From: Ruminiclostridium papyrosolvens DSM 2782
GTDB lineage: Bacteria; Bacillota; Clostridia; Acetivibrionales; DSM-1351
Direction: 5' to 3'
DNA: 64,000 bases
NCBI RefSeq assembly: GCF_029318685.1
Contig: NZ_CP119677.1
Span: 3,029,001 to 3,093,000, forward strand
The notes beneath the pieces were generated by a model, which worked only from the letters and a program-made list of their open reading frames with translations, had not been told where the DNA came from and made no database searches. The position numbers and the translations under genes were made by a program. Positions 604 through 26,860 of the stretch are shown one piece after another (the first letter of the stretch is position 1; each line of letters begins with the position of its first letter).

Positions 604-640
604 CATACAAAAAGATGCCCTCAAACAGGAAAGCACCTTT
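604..640 (-). terminator. Rho-independent terminator of the thiD-proximal TPP riboswitch
   Basis: On the minus strand AAAGGTGC pairs with GCATCTTT (8 bp, one G-U) around a 14-nt loop, followed by TTGTATGTTTTT. It lies between the proximal aptamer and the thiD ribosome binding site, where the expression platform of a transcriptional OFF switch is expected. Confidence 0.6.
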
Positions 641-664
641 AACCTATACAATAATTAATCGTAT

Positions 665-742
665 TTGCTTCCCTACACCGGTATTAACCGACAGGTTCCA
701 AGGGTCAGGTTTTACCTTCTCAACCAAAAATTGGTCCCCCCA
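665..742 (-). promoter_or_regulatory. TPP riboswitch aptamer, proximal copy
   Basis: The minus strand contains the THI-box consensus blocks in order: a G-rich P1 strand, TTGAGAAGG, CCTGACCCTTGGAACCTG, and the closing GTGTAGGGAAGCAA. ACCCTTGGAACCTG and the AGGGAAGCA end are diagnostic of thiamine pyrophosphate aptamers. This copy is nearest thiD, with a terminator at 604-640 and thiD starting at 538. Confidence 0.95.
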
Positions 743-769
743 CAAGTCACTGCTATAAACTTTTCCAAT

Positions 770-799
770 AAAAAAACGCTCACCTTTGTAAGGTAAGCG
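770..799 (-). terminator. Rho-independent terminator of the distal TPP riboswitch
   Basis: On the minus strand CGCTTACCTT pairs with AAGGTGAGCG (10 bp, one G-U) around a 3-nt loop, followed by an unbroken run of seven T. It separates the two aptamers, so each aptamer has its own expression platform. Confidence 0.85.
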
Positions 800-838
800 G
801 CATTTATCAAAATCTCTTCTAAAATTTCTGATAATATT

Positions 839-914
839 TTGCTTCCCTACACCGGTGTTAACCGACAGGTTCCAAGGGTCAGGTTTTACCTTCTCAACCA
901 AAATGGTTCCCCCG
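839..914 (-). promoter_or_regulatory. TPP riboswitch aptamer, distal copy
   Basis: Near-identical to the aptamer at 665-742: GGTTGAGAAGG, CCTGACCCTTGGAACCTG and GTGTAGGGAAGCAA occur in the same order, enclosed by a GGGGGAACC / closing strand. It is the first element transcribed from the promoter at 931-959. The long ORF that can be read across 644-979 is only these two aptamers translated and is not a gene. Confidence 0.95.
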
Positions 915-930
915 CAACTGTTACTATTAA

Positions 931-959
931 ATTTTATCATAATATAATAAATGGGTAAA
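931..959 (-). promoter_or_regulatory. Promoter for the TPP-riboswitch/thiD transcript
   Basis: Minus-strand -35 TTTACC (954-959), 17-bp spacer, -10 TAAAAT (931-936). The predicted start is a few bases before the distal aptamer. It overlaps the end of the upstream gene. Confidence 0.55.
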
Positions 960-962
960 GAT

Positions 963-1940
963 TTAATTTTCCGTTTCAAATTGTAAGAAGTCCCCTGCCA
1001 GTTCCAATCCCGTATTATTACCCTTATCTGAAAAAATAATATTACCCTTTTTATCTTGCAAAATAACGTCTACCTGAGATGTTATACTTTCGGTTATATC
1101 TATATCCATCATACCGTTTTTCGGAGCCTTTAAAACTCCTCCCCTTGCTACTGAAGCTTTTATTGAAAGTATATTCTTTGAATCTTCCACAACAATTTCA
1201 AGAATGTTATTTACATAAGATAGCTTCTTAATTTTAGCTCCGGTATAAGTGGCAAACCTAAAAAAATCATCTCCAAACTTTAAAAATGAAATCAAACCGT
1301 CAAAACTTGAGGTCAACCATGGTATGGATGCAATAGAAAACATAAGACAAGTATTTTCCGATTTAAAATGATTGCATTGAAGCCAAATCCAAGACTTTGG
1401 AAAAGAAGTTCCCCAGTCCTTTTCAAGATACCCGTAACCTCCGGTAAAATCCGTATCCTTGCCATTGATACATAAAAATCCTTCAATCTCGCAATGTATG
1501 TTTACAATTCCGTGATAACATTCCATAAAGGGTATAAAAGAAAAAGGCCCCATAATACCCGGATTAAATATAGTTTTGGGAAACGGAACCACCTCTGTAT
1601 AACCTATTTTACCTCTTAAATTGAAGCCCTCATCCTTTATATTAATAGAGAAACCATTTCTGTCGAAGTGATTGTCTTTTATGGAAATATGAAAGTCTTT
1701 TACAGAATATGAAAAGTCACTGATTGAAAACCTTTTGTAAAGTGTTTTCCCTGAAACCCCATCAATTATCTGTATAAAAGCATGCTTGTCGCTTTTGGTT
1801 TTTGACACACCGGGAATAACCGCATAAATATTTTTAGCATTTTTATCAATTATTTTAAAATACCAGCCCTCAAAATAGCCTCTACGTCTATATCTTCCCT
1901 GATATATTTCGGGGTTAAAAATTCTGTTGATTAAATACAT
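963..1940 (-). CDS. Tocopherol cyclase family protein
   Basis: About 325 residues with the two motif groups of the tocopherol cyclase family (Pfam Tocopherol_cycl): YFEGWYFKI near the N-terminus and GYGYLEKDWGTSFPKSWIW in the middle. Plant members close the chromanol ring of vitamin E; bacterial members in heterotrophs such as this have no established substrate, so no reaction is claimed. No signal peptide or membrane segment is seen, and the composition is that of a soluble beta-rich protein. The ORF opens 14 codons earlier, but ATG at 1940 is preferred because a GGAGTG site precedes it at suitable distance. That site lies inside the hairpin at 1946-1977. The gene ends just before the thiD riboswitch promoter. 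Confidence 0.8.
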   Translation of the reverse strand: MYLINRIFNPEIYQGRYRRRGYFEGWYFKIIDKNAKNIYAVIPGVSKTKSDKHAFIQIIDGVSGKTLYKRFSISDFSYSVKDFHISIKDNHFDRNGFSINIKDEGFNLRGKIGYTEVVPFPKTIFNPGIMGPFSFIPFMECYHGIVNIHCEIEGFLCINGKDTDFTGGYGYLEKDWGTSFPKSWIWLQCNHFKSENTCLMFSIASIPWLTSSFDGLISFLKFGDDFFRFATYTGAKIKKLSYVNNILEIVVEDSKNILSIKASVARGGVLKAPKNGMMDIDITESITSQVDVILQDKKGNIIFSDKGNNTGLELAGDFLQFETEN

Positions 1941-1945
1941 AAAGA

Positions 1946-1977
1946 AACACTCCGTTAGTTGTATATAACGAAGTGTT
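1946..1977 (-). terminator. Hairpin between hydrolase and tocopherol-cyclase-like gene, terminator-like
   Basis: AACACTTCGTTA pairs with TAACGGAGTGTT (12 bp, one G-U, 8-nt loop) on the minus strand, followed by TCTTT. It sits 28 bases after the hydrolase stop at 2005 and contains the GGAGTG site used to start the next gene, so it could both end the upstream transcript and hide the ribosome binding site in read-through RNA. On the plus strand it is followed by CCCATTTTTTG. Confidence 0.5.
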
Positions 1978-2004
1978 CCCATTTTTTGAATTCTTAAGCT
2001 AGTA

Positions 2005-2841
2005 TTATTTCTTTATAAAGGCTGCAATGTCATTTATAATGTATTGTGGAACATTTCCTTTAACATAATATTCAGCAGGAGTGGATTGTCCTTCTCCCTC
2101 CATATACATATGATTCAGTTTGGGATAAAGCTTGAATTCTGCATTTGATTTACCTTCAAAAGCTTTTTTCCATCCTTCATAGTCCGTTTTCGTACTGACT
2201 TGATAATCTCTTTCACCTTGCAGTACAAGTACCGGTTTTTCAATTTGTCCGGCCATTCCAATAACATCATAGTTTTTCATATCATAGAAGTAATATGGAG
2301 TTCCGAGGCTATAGCCCTTAGGGGGATTTTCCGGATTAAAGCTCTTGTCCTGTATGAGAGCAGCCTGTGCCTTTGCAGCCTCGGCCTGCTCCTCAGTTGC
2401 CATACCAAGTCCTGCAAGATATTTATATTGCTCCGGCAGAAGCTCATATAAAGGTCTGGAACATCCGCTCATTATTATTCCGGCCTTGAATGTACCTGTT
2501 TTATCTGTGCCAAGTATCCTGGGCAAATCATATCCGCCCTCACTATGACCCAATACGGTAATATTTGAAGCATCTATACCATCTATTGTTTTGAGATAAT
2601 TTGCTGCAGCAAAAGCGTCCTCTTCAAATTCTTCAGTCATGGTCAGTTTCGGTAATGACTGTATTCTAACTCCATATTCCAAAGTTCTTTTCTCGTATCT
2701 CAAAACTGCTACTCCCTGACTTGCAAGACCCACTGCCAAATCTCGGAAAGGCTTTAAGGGGCCCAAGGTTTCATCCCTGTCATTAGGGCCTGAACCGTGT
2801 ACCAATATAATTGCCGGAAACGGGCCTTTCCCCTTTGGCAT
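2005..2841 (-). CDS. Alpha/beta hydrolase (3' fragment of the split gene)
   Basis: 278 residues from the first in-frame ATG: oxyanion HGSG followed by DRDET, nucleophile motif GHSEGG, and a C-terminal acid/His region with VLQGERDYQV and LNHMYMEG. This is a complete dienelactone-hydrolase/esterase-like catalytic domain. No ribosome binding site precedes the ATG at 2841, which supports it being the interior of the larger gene rather than a separate start. The substrate is unknown. Confidence 0.75.
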   Translation of the reverse strand: MPKGKGPFPAIILVHGSGPNDRDETLGPLKPFRDLAVGLASQGVAVLRYEKRTLEYGVRIQSLPKLTMTEEFEEDAFAAANYLKTIDGIDASNITVLGHSEGGYDLPRILGTDKTGTFKAGIIMSGCSRPLYELLPEQYKYLAGLGMATEEQAEAAKAQAALIQDKSFNPENPPKGYSLGTPYYFYDMKNYDVIGMAGQIEKPVLVLQGERDYQVSTKTDYEGWKKAFEGKSNAEFKLYPKLNHMYMEGEGQSTPAEYYVKGNVPQYIINDIAAFIKK

Positions 2842-2843
2842 TG

Positions 2844-3593
2844 TCAGAGTACCGGGAAGCTTCCATTCTCCTTCTCCGATTGCAACCTCTTTTTCAGTAT
2901 ATTTGCAGAATTATCATATGAAGGTTTTGAGTATGTAAATTGTGATGAATCAGCTGCCTGATTAAATTCATCTATTTTTCCGTTATAGTCAAATCTCATA
3001 ATAAAATTGTATTTGGCCGTCTGAATTGTAAATGGTATAAAAACATTCTGGTGTACGGTATTTTTAGCTAAAGTCATTGTTTTAACATCAGGCTCAATAA
3101 CTGAAAACGCAGGAGCCAATGCAGAATTTATAAATTCCGTAGTCGCATATTTTGAAAAACTTTTGCTGAGTAAAAATGAAGCATCTGCGGTTTTTCCGGC
3201 TTTAACCATACCTATGAACTTCATGGAAATAAGTTTAATATAGTCATCGCATGTAAGCTTTAGTCCAAGCTGGGAATTTAAAACACTTAATGGTAAAATT
3301 GTTCTTCCCTCTTCAACCTTAACTTTTTCTTTTAAAACCTTCGCCTTTCCGTTTAATATAATATCACAACGGTTGACAAAAAGTTTTAATTCATTACTTC
3401 CCAGCTTAACTGTAGTAATTTGTTTTTTACCGTCCCAGGAAACTTGTCCTCCCATTGCTTCACAAGCAAGCTTGACAGGGACATATATATCCCCTGACAC
3501 TGACTGTTTGTTTTCTGAAGCGGCATAAGCTGCTGTTCCGCCCAGAATGAGAATTATCAGCATTAAGCTGATTAATCTTGTAACTTTTTTCAT
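2844..3593 (-). CDS. Copper amine oxidase N-terminal-like and DUF3887-like domains (5' fragment of the split gene)
   Basis: 249 residues. A signal peptide (MKKVTRLISLMLIILILGG, cleavage near AYAA) is followed by a copper-amine-oxidase-N-like domain at about 35-115 (VPVKLACEAMGGQVSWDG, GRTILPLSVLNSQLGL), which in Firmicutes is a non-catalytic cell-surface module. A DUF3887-like region at about 118-215 includes AKYNFIMRFDYNGKIDEF. The last 18 residues or so are out of frame relative to the hydrolase that follows. Confidence 0.75.
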   Translation of the reverse strand: MKKVTRLISLMLIILILGGTAAYAASENKQSVSGDIYVPVKLACEAMGGQVSWDGKKQITTVKLGSNELKLFVNRCDIILNGKAKVLKEKVKVEEGRTILPLSVLNSQLGLKLTCDDYIKLISMKFIGMVKAGKTADASFLLSKSFSKYATTEFINSALAPAFSVIEPDVKTMTLAKNTVHQNVFIPFTIQTAKYNFIMRFDYNGKIDEFNQAADSSQFTYSKPSYDNSANILKKRLQSEKENGSFPVL

Positions 3594-9304: not shown

Positions 9305-9365
9305 TAAAAAAACCCATCGCAAAACGAGTGACGGATTTATGTCATAAAAATAACCTTCACTCGTT
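9305..9365 (-). terminator. Expression platform of the M-box: terminator and alternative hairpin
   Basis: On the minus strand AAATCCGTC can pair with GATGGGTTT and is followed by a T run (9306-9312), a terminator. The overlapping AACGAGTGA (9357-9365) can instead pair with TCACTCGTT (9323-9331), which uses bases of the terminator stem. The two structures exclude each other, as expected for a switch. Confidence 0.6.
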
Positions 9366-9508
9366 GAGTTTTAGCACTATACAGCTTTGGACCACTTCTC
9401 TCCAGCTACATTAAGTAAAACCTTATTTCGGTAGTACCTGTTGACCCATTGGCATCTCTCGATGTTTCCGGGCAGCAGCATATATCTGTATAGGAACCTC
9501 ACCTAACG
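9361..9508 (-). promoter_or_regulatory. M-box (ykoK) magnesium riboswitch
   Basis: The minus strand carries the M-box landmarks in order: CGTTAGGTGAGGTTCCTA, ATGCTGCTGCCCGG, ATGCCAATGGGTCAACAGG, ACTACCG, and AGCTGGAGAG...TAGTGCT. These define the Mg2+-sensing aptamer that switches off transporter genes when Mg2+ is ample. It precedes corA, the expected target. Confidence 0.93.
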
Positions 9509-9528
9509 AATATTTAATTAACAAAGTA

Positions 9529-13194: not shown

Positions 13195-13218
13195 CAAAAT
13201 AGCAAAATTAAATACACT

Positions 13219-13333
13219 ATCTTTCATCCAGACTGTACTGTCGGCTCCGGAGTTTGACCGGATCTGCTTTCGCTCGCGGGCTTATAGCTTGTGCTATCTA
13301 CCGCCGGTAAGGATTTTCACCTATCCCTGAAGT
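13219..13333 (-). promoter_or_regulatory. FMN riboswitch (RFN element)
   Basis: The minus strand shows the RFN blocks: CTTCAGGGATAGGTGAAA, ATCCTTACCGGCGGTAGATAG, AAGCCCGCGAGCG, GCAGATCCGGT, and GAGCCGACAGTACAGTCTGG with ATGAAAGAT closing the structure. It controls the rib operon by FMN-dependent termination. Confidence 0.96.
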
Positions 13334-13368
13334 GTCATTATCATTATTAATATATTTTATTAAAGTAA

Positions 13369-26608: not shown

Positions 26609-26860
26609 TAAAAAAACCCCATCTCTGTTATAGAGACGAGGTTTACTCGCGGTACCACTCTAATTAATTAATTAATAACTCACTTTTCAATGGCAAATAC
26701 CATCTATCCTTATAACGGTGGAACTCCGGCTCACCCTACATTATCGGGCTGCAGTTCATGGATGAGTTCAAACCCTAAAAAACTATCGGTTCACACCAAC
26801 TACCGACTCTCTGAAAGTTTTTAAGACTTCTACTATTTCCAATCATTACTTTTAATATTT
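26609..26860 (-). promoter_or_regulatory. T-box leader (leucine) of leuA
   Basis: Minus strand: AATTAGAGTGGTACCGCG (the T-box, 26648-26665), stem I with AGAGAGTCGG and GGTGTGAACCGATAG, and a specifier loop GAACTCAT whose CTC (26764-26766) is a leucine codon. Uncharged tRNA-Leu binding would stabilise the antiterminator and switch leuA on. Confidence 0.95.
26614..26644 (-). terminator. Terminator of the leuA T-box
   Basis: AAACCTCGTCTCT pairs with AGAGATGGGGTTT (13 bp, two G-U) around ATAAC, followed by a T run. The T-box sequence just upstream can pair with the 5' arm to form the antiterminator. Confidence 0.93.

Follow-up and report, generated by a model that had tools for sequence, protein, structure and literature searches.

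Tandem TPP-class riboswitches of a short-J4-5 subtype in the thiD leader of Ruminiclostridium papyrosolvens DSM 2782

The stretch of DNA analysed here, referred to as the window, comprises 64,000 nucleotides of the genome of Ruminiclostridium papyrosolvens DSM 2782 (contig NZ_CP119677.1, positions 3,029,001 to 3,093,000), and all coordinates are positions within it. Its edge truncates a thiD gene on the minus strand. The genes thiC, thiM and thiE come after thiD, beyond the window, each above its NCBIfam cut-off, and the order thiD, thiC, thiM, thiE (NCBIfam names) is kept in all nine genomes with a tandem leader. An earlier note, made from the sequence alone, had described two TPP aptamers in series ahead of thiD, each with its own terminator, and had proposed a covariance search with Rfam RF00059 that should give two matches on the minus strand. 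The search (cmscan, gathering threshold 54.3 bits) gave exactly two TPP matches in the window, both on that strand, here called U (upstream) and D (downstream), and each has its own predicted terminator; the positions reported earlier are correct within a few bases. The features of the leader are collected in Table 1.

Table 1. Features of the thiD leader in window coordinates
Feature	Position	Strand	Evidence or detail
Predicted promoter	931-959	-	-35 TTTACC (959-954), 17-nt spacer, -10 TAAAAT (936-931)
Upstream aptamer U (RF00059)	826-923	-	59.0 bits, E 5e-9
P1 of U	914-917 with 839-842	-	sequence
J5-4 of U (G76-U77-G78)	852-850	-	sequence
AGGGAAGC of U	841-848	-	aptamer 3' strand = predicted antiterminator 5' strand
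Terminator 1	770-799 (stem 799-777, 10 pairs; U-tract below 777)	-	tail TTTTTTTATT; -12.8 kcal/mol
GCTTACCT	791-798	-	within 5' arm of terminator 1; predicted antiterminator partner, one mismatch
Downstream aptamer D (RF00059)	652-751	-	59.1 bits, E 4.8e-9
P1 of D	742-745 with 665-668	-	sequence; contains a U.G pair
J5-4 of D (G76-U77-G78)	678-676	-	sequence
AGGGAAGC of D	667-674	-	aptamer 3' strand = predicted antiterminator 5' strand
Terminator 2	604-640 (stem 640-611, 12 pairs; U-rich)	-	tail TTGTATGTTT; predicted hairpin
GCTTTCCT	628-635	-	within 5' arm of terminator 2; predicted antiterminator partner
thiD (TIGR00097)	2-538, truncated by the window edge	-	profile match

A promoter scan around the leader found three promoter-like sites, with 1.6 expected by chance. 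The one upstream of U starts a few bases past the stop codon of the upstream gene, and hexamers like those of the predicted promoter precede U at the same place in all nine tandem genomes, as judged by eye. Terminator-like sites between positions 500 and 1100 number three on both strands together, against a mean of 0.4 after shuffling. An open reading frame reading across both aptamers (644-979) is without a Pfam match and was taken as mechanical.

Position numbers within the aptamers are those of E. coli thiM, and the list of conserved positions follows the relevant part of PMC3764141. Both window copies possess the UGAGA pyrimidine-binding motif (J3-2) as well as U59, G60, G78 and A80 of the pyrophosphate arm, and to this extent their description as complete aptamers holds; J4-5 is two nucleotides short in both, A61-U62 being missing, and the conserved C77 of J5-4 is replaced by U in both. 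The altered base at the pyrophosphate site had been overlooked, as had the repeated arrays before related thiD genes. Judged by sequence, the window aptamers are members of a short-J4-5 subtype with a variable position 77, found ahead of thi biosynthesis genes. A subtype model, R1, was used to score thiD relatives from named genomes (the best 80 of 94), and 24 of these loci reach at least 58 bits, the remainder at most 43 bits. The UGAGA motif and U59, G60, G78 and A80 are retained in all 36 subtype matches at or above 58 bits in the thiD loci, the short J4-5 to J5-4 spacing in 35 of them, and position 77 is C in 28, U in 5, A in 2 and G in 1, compared with C in all 15 weaker canonical matches. 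A sharp subtype boundary was considered and rejected: the gap between 58 and 43 bits is confined to the thiD loci, but scores in a sample of the class are continuous from 107 to 55 bits.

Across 391 genomes of the class, the pattern with any base at position 77 is found in 173 and with T there in 26. P5 can form in 27 of the 33 rows with T77, and 22 rows, 13 of them from within the genus, share the TCRG context of the window. Covariation in a chosen set of 29 supports the fold, with both partners altered in six pairs where shuffles give 2.8. That UGAGA, CUG and AGG do not vary in alignment A1 is partly an effect of row selection, which used a pattern containing them; the counts on the 36 model matches above stand in its place. 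The genes downstream of the subtype at 20 loci are thiC, thiM-thiE, thiD-thiC, thiG (PF05690) and, once, the precursor transporter gene thiW; members with C77 and with U77 precede the same kinds of genes. C77 is treated here as varying within the TPP class and not as class-defining, and for this reason TPP is kept as no more than the presumed ligand. The TPP aptamers of the thiC leaders L108 and L109, whose P3 arm is about 65 nt long, have low RF00059 scores (36.2 and 40.7 bits), where the match probably stops short of the true 5' strand.

It is possible, if unlikely, that in both aptamers the TPP-class fold serves to sense not TPP but thiamin or its monophosphate, via the changed pyrophosphate-binding junction. 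The junction is altered in both copies, position 77 is mixed in the subtype, and the one further TPP switch of the source genome, upstream of thiT (TIGR02357, PF09515), is canonical. The genome contains ThiN with no ThiL above the cut-off, and thiamin is therefore probably an obligate intermediate; the part of PMC9481103 on variants mentions unpublished members of the TPP class with a preference for thiamin or its monophosphate, some of them perhaps arranged in tandem. Against this, the binding residues listed above are kept throughout the subtype, C77 is still its commonest base, and a short J4-5 occurs together with C77 in many Clostridia. Members with C77 and U77 lie before like genes and occur together within single genomes (G327, G216) and within the array L128, and this speaks against position 77 as such switching the specificity. 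The relevant passages of two sources disagree on a direct contact between C77 and the pyrophosphate: PMC3764141 places C77 at the metal that holds the pyrophosphate, G78 alone touching the latter, whereas PMC7824784 reports direct contact. Among TPP, thiamin and thiamin monophosphate, TPP is the default ligand of the subtype. Ordinary TPP sensing is favoured by the retained G60 and G78 and by C77 and U77 members lying ahead of similar genes, while the altered junction makes the subtype a candidate variant. The wider claim, that short-J4-5 aptamers before thiD-thiC operons form a specificity variant reading thiamin or thiamin monophosphate and not TPP, is given the same small chance. If it were true, the end product would control thiT, and the synthesis genes would respond to an intermediate still in need of conversion by ThiN, through a switch repeated two or three times serially in lineages of Bacillota and Spirochaetota for full shut-off.

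With TPP retained as the ligand, the leader very probably starts at a single promoter and carries two serial TPP-class riboswitches, both of them OFF switches that act by transcription termination. Two RF00059 aptamers, two terminator hairpins and the conservation of both units across nine genomes point to this arrangement; the antiterminators of both units are predicted from folding, and we infer TPP as the ligand, termination in the living cell and a selective advantage in shutting off a costly pathway deeply. A ligand-held terminator with a competing antiterminator is the usual logic of termination OFF switches, and here it is found twice in series. When ligand is bound, AGGGAAGC would be kept within the aptamer (P4/P1) and the terminator would form, in each unit. 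When ligand is absent, AGGGAAGC would pair with the first terminator arm, in which its partner is GCUUACCU in the U unit (one mismatch) and GCUUUCCU in the D unit, and polymerase would read through. Transcription of thiD-thiC-thiM-thiE would require escape of the polymerase from both stops, and repression would thus be multiplied.

A hairpin with a T-rich tail is present in all 18 units of the nine tandem genomes, the shuffled control covering the window sites. Antiterminator probabilities were computed on transcripts cut at the first arm of the terminator. With a uniform cut, the probability of downstream pairing of AGGGAAGC has a mean of 0.76 over the 18 units, against 0.32 with shuffled platforms, and exceeds 0.5 in 16 of them. 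The window copies reach 0.76 (U) and 0.83 (D), values attained by 3 and 2 of 60 shuffles, respectively; two of the 18 units lie below 0.5, and across units the observed value is attained by as many as 15 of 60 shuffles. The choice of cut matters: with the automatic terminator cut, which is shorter for window D, 14 of the 18 units exceed 0.5 and window D has a value of 0.30. Covariation is no test of the antiterminator, whose 5' strand is already constrained by the aptamer.

By arithmetic, placing two independent switches in series, if they are equal in affinity, squares the maximal repression and shrinks the span from 90% to 10% expression from 81-fold to between 40- and 57-fold, for termination efficiencies of 1.0 to 0.8. 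Affinities tenfold apart give no steepening, and with affinities thirtyfold apart the response is broader than that of a single switch. The steeper response expected in the earlier note is thus obtained when the affinities of both copies are similar and not otherwise, and it would then be modest; deeper shut-off is the surer gain, because the narrowing of the span disappears when affinities differ tenfold. Tandem TPP switches are termed pseudo-cooperative in the part of PMC9481103 that deals with them.

The two copies differ in P1. Its 5' strand is UUGC in U and UUGU in D in each of the nine tandem genomes. The 3' strand is GCAA in all nine D copies and in six U copies, the exceptions in U being GCAG (G001, G010) and GCAC (G004); these changes weaken the outermost P1 pair of U in the first two genomes and abolish it in G004. 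Toy P1 hairpins for the window give -2.6 kcal/mol for U and -0.3 kcal/mol for D. The weaker P1 of D therefore predicts a higher ligand threshold for D in the window and in five other genomes, and window U, with the stronger P1 in this model, would respond at lower ligand than D. This order is not predicted in all nine genomes, because the P1 pair of U is weakened or lost in the three named above.

All 11 Ruminiclostridium genomes contain three TPP matches, and in nine of them the thiD leader is tandem with the same copy-specific bases; the leader of Ruminiclostridium papyrosolvens C7 is the multi-copy locus L121. The near-identity noted earlier between the window copies stands up with three substitutions and one 2-nt indel over 79 columns from P1 to P1, but the recent duplication of a whole aptamer-terminator cassette deduced from it does not. 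A recent event is ruled out by the presence of the pair in nine of 11 genomes, by the copy-specific 5' strands of P1 kept in all nine, and by the platforms of U and D, which in the window are 57% identical, compared with 59% when shuffled. The corresponding values in the other eight tandem genomes are 60-67% and 57-60%, and whole aptamers U and D are 79-96% alike across the nine. With aptamers alike while platforms are at about the shuffled level, the likeness is ascribed to constraint, perhaps with some exchange between copies, and not to a fresh copy. Of the eight variable core columns three vary in both copies, one of these in exactly the same two genomes, which is no more than suggestive of gene conversion between U and D. 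The thiD protein of the window is 75-76% identical to those of G001, G004, G008 and G010, and the pair therefore predates that split (thiD of G007, its start being mis-parsed, was left out of the thiD tree). On these comparisons the pair is old and not a recent duplicate. In the two remaining genomes, G003 and G009, the thiC leader has a similar promoter and a single aptamer, which bears the D signature and has a P3 arm about 65 nt long; their thiD is only 46-48% identical to that of the window and may not be orthologous. The tandem state needs two changes on a thiC tree that is too poorly resolved to decide between gain and loss of U.

A lone D-type aptamer, as in G003 and G009, would fit a reading in which only one copy still regulates and the other is a redundant remnant of duplication, and in the RNA-seq part of PMC12121620 only the upstream copy of the Bacillus anthracis pair is seen acting. 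Aptamer core and terminator are, however, kept in both copies in all nine genomes despite platforms diverged to or near the shuffled level, and a remnant is considered very improbable. Even less credence is given to a second promoter within the leader that would uncouple the units and let D act alone on some transcripts: a -10-like sequence precedes D inside the duplicated stretch in several genomes (by eye), the gap between units in G008 is 243 nt, and one of the three promoter-like calls (861-833), near chance level, lies inside aptamer U, but the gap from terminator 1 to aptamer D in the window is about 20 nt with no promoter called there, and a start at 833 would still run into terminator 1.

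Two OFF switches in series, both acting on one transcript, thus remain the preferred reading, and arrays of this kind recur before relatives of thiD. Locus L146, whose contig starts 17 nt ahead of the match, was dropped from the 24 subtype loci. Two or three copies are present in nine of the 23 judged (L121, L128, L131, L134, L136 and L143 with two, L123, L142 and L144 with three), some of which belong to Spirochaetota, compared with one of 15 loci having only canonical TPP matches (L156, with two). This contrast is not a firm one (Fisher two-sided p 0.056), the counts include close kin (L131/L136, L142/L144, L122/L124/L126), and in some canonical loci the TPP match is not adjacent to thiD. 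On a tree of 33 thiD proteins and that of the window, the multi-copy label needs eight changes, at least five of them forced by well-supported branches; L146 was scored as single, which may add one change, and L153, L164, L178, L179, L181 and L182 (six of the 39 loci with a TPP match) were left out. The label is not clearly clustered, 92 of 500 shuffles being as low. The duplications in L123, L142 and L144 are recent, since copies 1 and 2 there have platforms of 76-99% identity.

The idea that the whole subtype is prone to tandems was ruled out: among the 391 class genomes, with the best 11 candidates per genome scored by R1, close pairs (two matches within 1 kb) were found in none of the 53 matching genomes outside the genus, and the same scoring did recover both copies in the tandem genomes sampled. 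At the level of the order, a close pair of RF00059 matches was found only in the nine genus genomes among 58. In the Spirochaetota arrays L142 (2349 onward), L144 (710 onward) and L143 (2348 onward), earlier copies are followed by a hairpin and U-tract, and no such hairpin was seen for the last copy, near thiD, in the stretch viewed (both by eye); this layout suggests termination and then translational control in series.

Two same-class aptamers in one leader, each with a separate predicted expression platform, make the window pair a further example of the published tandem TPP architecture. The Bacillus anthracis tenA leader (Welz & Breaker 2007), aptly chosen for comparison in the earlier note, likewise has two serial TPP-class switches before thiamin genes (PMC9481103, PMC12121620, in the parts on this leader), each of which controls termination independently in vitro (PMC12121620). 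The operon here is thiD-thiC-thiM-thiE and not tenA, and the two window aptamers are of the short-J4-5 type with U77. Tandem TPP switches had been called uncommon, which is right for TPP switches at large, with less than 1% of TPP leaders in 2007 (PMC2258182, in the passage concerned), and fits less well for the thiD context. By 2022 there were 213 members and one three-in-a-row example according to the tandem section of PMC9481103, and PMC12452182, as far as its account of TPP-TPP pairs goes, places them before thiD, thiM and thiC in Bacillota, TPP-TPP being the main contiguous arrangement in front of thiD; architecture and target genes are those of the window pair. The short-J4-5 subtype is not described in the accounts of tandem TPP switches in these two sources. 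Single short-J4-5 switches of other Clostridia, before thiC, thiM-thiE, thiG and thiW, are of the same subtype and precede thiamin genes, with one copy per leader. A literature search (Ruminiclostridium TPP riboswitches; tandem riboswitch concerted evolution; Clostridium cellulolyticum thiamine riboswitch) found no paper on this pair.

One, two or three copies of one subtype before related thiD genes form a natural series for weighing what serial switches cost against what they gain, and the P1 strands of U and D add a predicted difference in threshold within one leader. The short J4-5 with a free position 77 provides a concrete candidate set for the unpublished specificity variants mentioned in the variant section of PMC9481103. 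Rfam at the gathering score recovered 24 of the 36 subtype copies that R1 found in thiD loci, and such arrays may therefore be undercounted in surveys.

The gene upstream of the thi leader in the window (963-1982, minus strand) encodes a tocopherol-cyclase-like protein (PF14249), as is the case in G000, G002, G006 and G007; a different small protein occupies this place in G001, G004, G008, G010, G003 and G009, and the stretch examined in G005 showed neither of the two. Further upstream (2005-3593, minus strand), an EstD-like hydrolase (2005-2841) abuts a Cu-amine-oxidase-N domain protein (2844-3593), which may represent a single broken gene or two neighbouring genes. Other RNAs above threshold on the minus strand of the window are an M-box (9349-9517), an FMN riboswitch (13212-13337) and a T-box leader (26629-26855).
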